Of a stretch of DNA of 28,096 nucleotides, positions 26,813 to 27,550 are shown in pieces. This stretch comes from a virus. Every line of letters starts with the position of its first letter. Within the stretch, counting starts at the first letter, position 1. The DNA is taken from IMG/VR virus record IMGVR_UViG_3300028920_000219, positions 1 through 28,096 of that record, one strand, 5' to 3'. Under the pieces are notes generated by a model. It searched no databases, was not told where the DNA came from, and saw nothing but the letters and a program-made list of their open reading frames with translations. Both the position numbers and the translations under genes were made by a program.

Positions 26813-27550
26813 ATGTCAAAAGACCCAGCATTTCTATTGTATTACCAAGATTTTTGGTTCGGCACAAAGCGGTTTAACAATGAGCAGGTCGGCGCATATA
26901 TCCGACTTCTTATTGAACAAGCCGACAATTACTCTTTGTCAGTATCAGACATTCAAGGCGTTTGCAGTCTTGAATTGTGGGATACATTAAAGCACAAATT
27001 TGACAAAGACAGTGAGGGTAAATTTTATAACAAAAGATTACGAAAGGAAAAGCAAAGGAGAGAGGAATATTCAAAGTCAAGGTCTGTAAATCGTTCTAAA
27101 TCAAAGGTTAAGACTAAAAAACATATGAAAACATATGATAAACATATGGAAGATGAAAATGAAAATGAAATTGAAAATAGAAAAGAGTCTTTTAAGACTC
27201 TTGTATTTGGATTCAATAAGGTCTATTCCGGATATGTTTTAAATAACTTCTTTGATTACTGGACCGAGCCAAACAGGTCAAGATCAAAAATGAGATTTGA
27301 GATGGAGAAAACCTGGGAGCTGTCCAGAAGATTAAAGACGTGGGCGAATAGATCGAGGGATTTTGGAAAAAGCGTAGACGCTCAGAAGCCCATAGAGCCA
27401 TGTCCTGCGGTAGATCACGATGCGGATGGCACAGAGTTGAGATGCCGGAAGATAAAAGGCCACACAGGCCCGCATGATTGGCACAGGGCGAATAAGGACC
27501 CAGCGCAGATTAAAGATTTTAACGAAATCGCCAGCAAACTGACAAAATGA
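26813..27550 (+). CDS. Replication protein, DUF1376-type with winged-helix N-terminus
   Basis: The predicted product has 245 residues. I choose ATG 26813 because DUF1376 proteins begin this way (MSKDPAFLLYYQDFWFGT, EQVGAYIRLLIEQAD). The N-terminal about 75 residues are the winged-helix-like domain. A basic, low-complexity linker (about 76-125) contains KTKKHMKTYDKHMEDENENEIEN. A helical domain follows: FFDYWTEPNRSRSKMRFEMEKTW and ELSRRLKTWANR (147-180), common in phage DnaD/primosome-like replication proteins. C197, H202, C211, H217, H221 and H224 (CRKIKGHTGPHDWHR) form a possible metal site. The gene likely initiates phage DNA replication or loads helicase. The linker DNA contains an origin-like repeat cluster. 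Confidence 0.75.
   Translation: MSKDPAFLLYYQDFWFGTKRFNNEQVGAYIRLLIEQADNYSLSVSDIQGVCSLELWDTLKHKFDKDSEGKFYNKRLRKEKQRREEYSKSRSVNRSKSKVKTKKHMKTYDKHMEDENENEIENRKESFKTLVFGFNKVYSGYVLNNFFDYWTEPNRSRSKMRFEMEKTWELSRRLKTWANRSRDFGKSVDAQKPIEPCPAVDHDADGTELRCRKIKGHTGPHDWHRANKDPAQIKDFNEIASKLTK
27122..27202 (+). repeat. Iteron-like, AT-rich and inverted-repeat cluster inside the replication gene (candidate origin)
   Basis: Three CATATG palindromes start at 27122, 27132 and 27143, about one helical turn apart. Four GAAAAT-type hexamers follow in tandem (27155-27178, the third is GAAATT). Next comes a 9-2-9 inverted repeat, AAGAGTCTT (27183-27191) and AAGACTCTT (27194-27202). All lie in the linker region of the replication protein, as the lambda origin does within gene O. 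The function is inferred. Confidence 0.5.

Follow-up and report, generated by a model that had tools for sequence, protein, structure and literature searches.

A probable replication origin within the initiator-like gene of a phage, with repeats conserved as DNA among its relatives

Results

The initiator-like gene and its surroundings

The DNA analysed here (the window) is a 28,096-bp stretch of viral sequence. On its + strand, at 26813..27547, lies a gene for a replication initiator-like protein of 245 amino acids, composed of a DUF1376-like N-terminal domain, a linker whose coding sequence carries the candidate origin DNA, and a C-terminal module. The N-terminal domain (residues 1-100, 26813..27112, + strand) ends in the basic segment SKSRSVNR, and its AlphaFold model is winged-helix-like, with helices and a short beta-hairpin predicted confidently over residues 10-100 (pLDDT above 90). 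Upstream of the gene we found an exonuclease VIII-like gene, and downstream a 79-aa ORF and a NinG homologue, after which the record ends; no helicase gene was seen in this downstream part. To judge from the predicted exonuclease VIII-like and NinG genes, these surroundings are those of a lambda-like early region.

Assignment of the protein to a family called for some care. It had no significant match in Pfam, the DUF1376 profile (PF07120) included, nor was Phage_rep_O (PF04492, the lambda O family) matched anywhere in the window record, while among the PHROGs it matched phrog_19415 (function unknown) and, weakly, a primosomal protein. Eight of 22 aligned relatives did match the Pfam DUF1376 profile (E up to 0.01), others carried the PHROG names primosomal protein, replication initiation protein, replisome organizer or O-like, and one member of the family with CATATG repeats (described below) weakly matched Rep_Org_C. 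Foldseek comparison with a viral fold library returned DUF1376 and Lin1244-like proteins. Against the PDB, Foldseek gave no match with an E of 0.001 or better, and VIA-align gave winged-helix chains at Z scores of 6 or less (4.4 for the DnaD N-domain), so that the modelled N-terminal domain is compatible with a winged helix, which these matches do not prove. The preliminary description of this DNA had spoken of a DUF1376-type protein; since some of its relatives match this family and Foldseek finds models of it, but the protein itself misses the profile, we call it DUF1376-like only.

The C-terminal module (residues ∼120-190) recurs in Bacteroidota phage proteins that have other N-termini, and the genes for those proteins adjoin a DnaC-like, COG1484-type or DnaB-type gene. 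Homologues of the initiator-like gene in named phages likewise adjoin helicase or helicase-loader genes. Among relatives, a DnaB_C match was present in 8 of 10 large downstream ORFs (in one of these, which encodes a Toprim-containing protein, the match is weak), a set chosen by size that is not an estimate of frequency, and in 2 of 10 ORFs of a second downstream set.

A promoter-like sequence, TTGATT-N17-TATAAT, matches the consensus upstream of the gene (26659..26687, + strand), and transcription from this putative promoter would run across the candidate origin; such sites are no commoner than in shuffled sequence. Downstream of it, in the gene leader, TGAGACACC and GGTGTCTCA form an inverted repeat (26695-26703 and 26768-26776, 64 nt apart). 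An Rfam search of the window, this leader repeat included, gave no match. We also noted a perfect 20-nt inverted match between 6689-6708, at the start of a distant gene, and 27516-27535, at the end of the initiator-like gene, which is probably due to chance.

Iterons and a phased hexamer tract in the linker

The hexamer CATATG has just three occurrences in the window, at 27122, 27132 and 27143, against an expectation of about 7, and none of 300 dinucleotide shuffles of the window gave three copies within 30 nt. Each copy is part of a 9-bp unit, AAACATATG, on the + strand, and the units (iterons) are spaced by 10 and 11 nt. CATATG is read as HM in iteron 1 (27119..27127), in another frame as TYD in iteron 2 (27129..27137) and again as HM in iteron 3 (27140..27148), which abuts the tract described next. 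The claim of three CATATG palindromes at helical spacing was thus confirmed, and the 27122-27202 interval given for the whole element proved correct to within 3 bases. On the - strand, 27231..27238 (AACATATC, one mismatch) is possibly a fourth, degenerate iteron that points the other way, but it may be a chance occurrence. The 81-bp region has an A+T content of 77%, placing it in the top 0.5% of the window.

The last CATATG is followed, at a gap of zero, by five hexamers (GAAGAT GAAAAT GAAAAT GAAATT GAAAAT; 27149..27178, + strand), which code for EDENENEIEN and which we propose to be an unwinding or single-strand element. This is the sole perfect (NNANNT)x5 tract on the + strand of the window, with 0.05 expected. 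The repeats had previously been counted as four A-rich hexamers; they are indeed present, but a description as five NNANNT units in phase fits them better.

Beyond the tract lies a perfect 9-2-9 inverted repeat, AAGAGTCTT-TT-AAGACTCTT (27183..27202, no strand assigned). The window holds no second repeat of this type, and chance would give 0.12. No comparable inverted repeat was found after the tract in the relatives, where the mean best arm did not exceed that of shuffled sequences. The repeat reported earlier is therefore real and perfect but private to this window and probably no part of an origin, and we dropped it from the origin model.

Conservation of the CATATG arrays as DNA

In a relative found by protein similarity, the same linker contains AAACATATGAT-AAACATATGA-AAACATATGAT-AAACATATGG. 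A scan of a viral collection for three spaced copies of AACATATG returned 40 stretches, of which 28 lay, by our own reading, inside genes of the initiator family; these 28 genes differ in their C-terminal domains. Five other stretches from the pattern scan (L019, L022, L037, L047 and L050) are plain tandem repeats outside initiator-family genes and were not counted as support. In 61 non-redundant relatives, sampled on the basis of protein, there were 195 copies of CATATG as against 108 +/- 5 in synonymous-codon shuffles. The copies occupy all three reading frames (102/70/23) and are spaced by 11 nt (61 cases) or 12 nt (23 cases). Depending on the frame CATATG encodes HM, NIC or TYD, and these peptides use the codons that spell it: the base before IC or IS is C in 31 of 35 cases (24% elsewhere), and the isoleucine of IC or IS is ATA in 31 of 35 (41% elsewhere). 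Since the NIC, TYD and HM codons all spell CATATG, the protein signature HMxNICxTYDxHM is, on its codon usage, a translated 11-nt DNA repeat.

The query of our initial search for relatives reached into the array. The search was repeated with residues 1-100, which end before the array, and CATATG then occurred at 4.70 copies per kb in the gene and 0.109 in the flanks, a 43-fold difference in density; at least two copies were present in the linker of 42 of 50 genes. Among cultured phages, TBLASTN analysis detected the CATATG class only in one distant fecal phage record, and in plasmids it detected none. With the class nearly absent from cultured phage records, no mapped origin could be borrowed for comparison.

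Conservation of the tract

Third codon bases in 59 genes alternate between A and T over the ten codons that follow the last iteron (92-100% per position), after which the alternation fades. Isoleucine codons within the tract obey the same phase: 35/36 of those at even positions are ATA, and 15/17 of those at odd positions are ATT. An alternation score of at least 9/10 was reached by 94% of 127 genes, compared with 22% of synonymous shuffles and 4% for the N-terminal region. In 83 of 87 cases no nucleotide separates the last C[AG]TATG from the start of the tract, whose pooled unit is RAARAT-like (G81%, A74%, A98%, A85%, A85%, T99%). The codon pattern reflects selection on the DNA and not on ENENEN peptides.

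It could be argued that only the protein matters here, the linker being flexible, acidic and of low complexity and the DNA repeats arising simply because codons recur. The protein does show HMxxHM and ENENEN repeats, and low-complexity linkers expand easily. The tests of reading frame and wobble position refute this explanation, which we regard as almost certainly wrong: a single DNA word encodes different residues in each of three frames, and the choice of codon tracks the DNA phase (ATA versus ATT) rather than the amino acid. The preliminary description had suggested that DNA signals take precedence over the encoded residues, and had proposed a comparison of linker DNA with amino acids in related phages. 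That comparison bears the suggestion out, as many relatives conserve both the CATATG arrays and the hexamer tracts at the level of DNA, in three frames and at synonymous positions.

Other iteron classes and the basic segment

Sites with (GAAAAT)4 numbered 58 (non-redundant) in the viral collection, and 43 of them were in recognisable family members, 12 of which have no CATATG. Family members of this kind carry instead the palindromic repeats GGCAATGCC, GGTAATACC, CGTAATACG or AGGTTTACCTA, at the same place and before the same tract. The class of repeat correlates with the basic segment at the end of the N-terminal domain: SxSRxxN, the type to which SKSRSVNR of the window protein belongs, accompanies CATATG in 66 of 73 cases, and RWxK or GGRPK accompany other repeats in 34 of 35 (66/7 against 1/34; Fisher p = 5e-20, a statistic that ignores shared ancestry). 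Since the repeat class changes with the segment, this covariation points to the basic segment, which follows the N-terminal fold, as a probable part of the DNA-reading surface.

Packaging, recombination and partition systems also make use of palindromic repeat arrays, and the present array could in principle be such a site, located by chance inside a replication gene. We consider this very unlikely, given that the repeats go with an initiator homologue and vary in concert with its basic segment, and that the neighbours of the gene in relatives include helicase genes.

Several further arrangements were observed. In the family members L221 (= L125), L149, L150 and L209 drifting iterons (AACGTATG, CATACG) precede an intact tract, and these may be intermediates between classes. 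In two phage genes outside the initiator family (L254 and L263) an ENENEN tract comes after CACAATTGT or AACCG-type repeats, so the layout of iterons plus hexamers may extend beyond this family. Initiator-like genes of Cellulophaga phage phi19:3 (L007) and Riemerella phage CRP5 (L010) contain 12-nt tandem repeats of the GTAACAGATACA and GATACNGTTTCT types in their linkers.

A second array in many relatives

A second CATATG array is present in 31 of 50 relatives, ∼160-180 nt upstream of the first in the part of the gene coding for the N-terminal domain, where it encodes HMxNICxTYD; in L074, L097 and L102, for example, the two arrays are at gene positions ∼132-157 and 294-345. The window, unlike many relatives, carries only the three iterons and has no second array in the N-terminal coding part. 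Possible roles of the upstream array are looping, control or a second binding cluster.

Repressors and initiators often bind repeats within their own genes, and the second array could serve regulation. The iterons might thus be an operator only, used by the protein to repress its own gene or to set its timing, with replication starting elsewhere. Against this, the arrays sit 120-345 nt inside the gene and not at a promoter, the neighbouring genes in relatives encode helicases, and the phased A/T tract, common to several repeat classes and joined to them at zero gap, is left unexplained. We therefore judge the operator explanation to be improbable.

Discussion

Origins located inside the gene of their own initiator are known from several phages. 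In lambda and in Stx phage variants, ori lies in gene O, with repeats bound by the initiator and an A+T-rich unwinding region in mid-gene (PMC7466680, PMC3985674). In the lactococcal phages TP901-1 and Tuc2009, direct repeats within the replisome organizer gene constitute the origin and are bound by the product of that gene (PMC8965321). SPP1 has oriL in gene 38, which encodes its origin-binding protein and contains direct repeats and an AT-rich unwinding element; genes for a helicase loader and a DnaB-type helicase follow, and a second origin, oriR, is located elsewhere (PMC6316719). The locus described here shares two features with the lambda, TP901-1 and SPP1 types, namely tandem short repeats inside an initiator gene and an A+T-rich region directly beside them, and an origin in this position is accordingly of a known kind. 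As had been proposed from the outset, the order of elements, iterons and then an AT-rich region in the middle of the gene, is that of gene O. The details differ, however. Lambda has 4 copies of ∼19 bp imperfect inverted repeats, whereas the repeats here are 6-bp palindromes within ∼9-bp units at 10-12 nt, followed at zero gap by a strictly phased NNANNT tract, and the phage shows no Phage_rep_O match. TP901-1 and Tuc2009 share the placement of repeats inside the gene but differ in protein family and in the repeats, and SPP1, which shares both the repeats and the AT-rich element within the gene, differs in its protein, its repeats and its additional oriR.

In outline the arrangement also resembles the basal unwinding module of bacterial oriC, where DnaA boxes are accompanied by DnaA-trios and a DnaD recognition element (PMC10797057, PMC10201434): in both, double-strand sites are directly followed by a single-strand element of phased short repeats. 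Identification of the tract as a DnaA-trio or a DnaD recognition element was nevertheless rejected on polarity and pattern (PMC10797057, PMC10201434). Read away from the iterons the tract is 5'-[G/A]AA-AAT-3', whereas the trio, 3'-[G/A]AT-5', has the reverse polarity; nor are the TnnT pairs of the DnaD element preserved in the tract. The DnaA box TTATNCACA does not occur in the 28,096-bp window.

Our reading starts from the conservation of iterons and tract as DNA, their zero spacing, the covariation of iteron class with the basic segment and the helicase neighbours in relatives, all computed here. From these we infer that 27119-27178 is very probably the core of a theta-type replication origin of this phage, embedded in the gene of its own initiator. 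The DUF1376-like N-terminal domain together with the basic segment would bind the AAACATATG iterons, about one helical turn apart, and the resulting nucleoprotein complex would melt the phased (NNANNT)x5 tract or capture one of its strands. The C-terminal module would recruit the replicative helicase or its loader, replication would start at this site, and host enzymes would extend from it. The initial proposal of an origin within the linker of the replication gene is thus supported at the level of sequence, by DNA conservation, initiator homology and the DnaB/DnaC-type helicase neighbours of relatives. GC skew, also suggested as a check, rises steadily in the window with constant sign and no switch, and its minimum was within ∼2 kb of the gene in 2 of 6 longer contigs of relatives and elsewhere in the rest.

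More tentatively, and with a little less than an even chance of being right, we propose that a modular origin code is in use across a large and mostly uncultured group of phages. Under this proposal a class-specific palindromic iteron (CATATG, GGCAATGCC / GGTAATACC, AGGTTTACCTA or CGTAATACG) would be read by the basic segment (SxSRxxN, RWxK or GGRPK) that follows a winged-helix domain. The iteron would be joined at zero gap to a common strand-asymmetric (RAARAT)n-like element, whose single-stranded form would be recognised six bases at a time, as the phage counterpart of DnaA-trios. As far as our searches show, no earlier description exists of the iteron classes, of a phased tract at zero gap or of the correlation between segment and repeat; DUF1376 appeared in five papers, none of which dealt with replication in its title or the opening of its abstract, in a literature search that covered few subscription journals.

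The correlation offers a concrete, testable rule linking iteron to protein segment. The common phased element beside very different iterons likewise makes DNA melting by phage initiators testable, as a choice between DNA that melts easily and one strand that is recognised. What looks like a low-complexity piece of a phage protein can be read as an origin signal, one that sequence by itself suffices to detect in uncultured phages. If the modular code is true, the ENENEN, ETETET and NVNVNV peptides of these initiators would be translated origin DNA.
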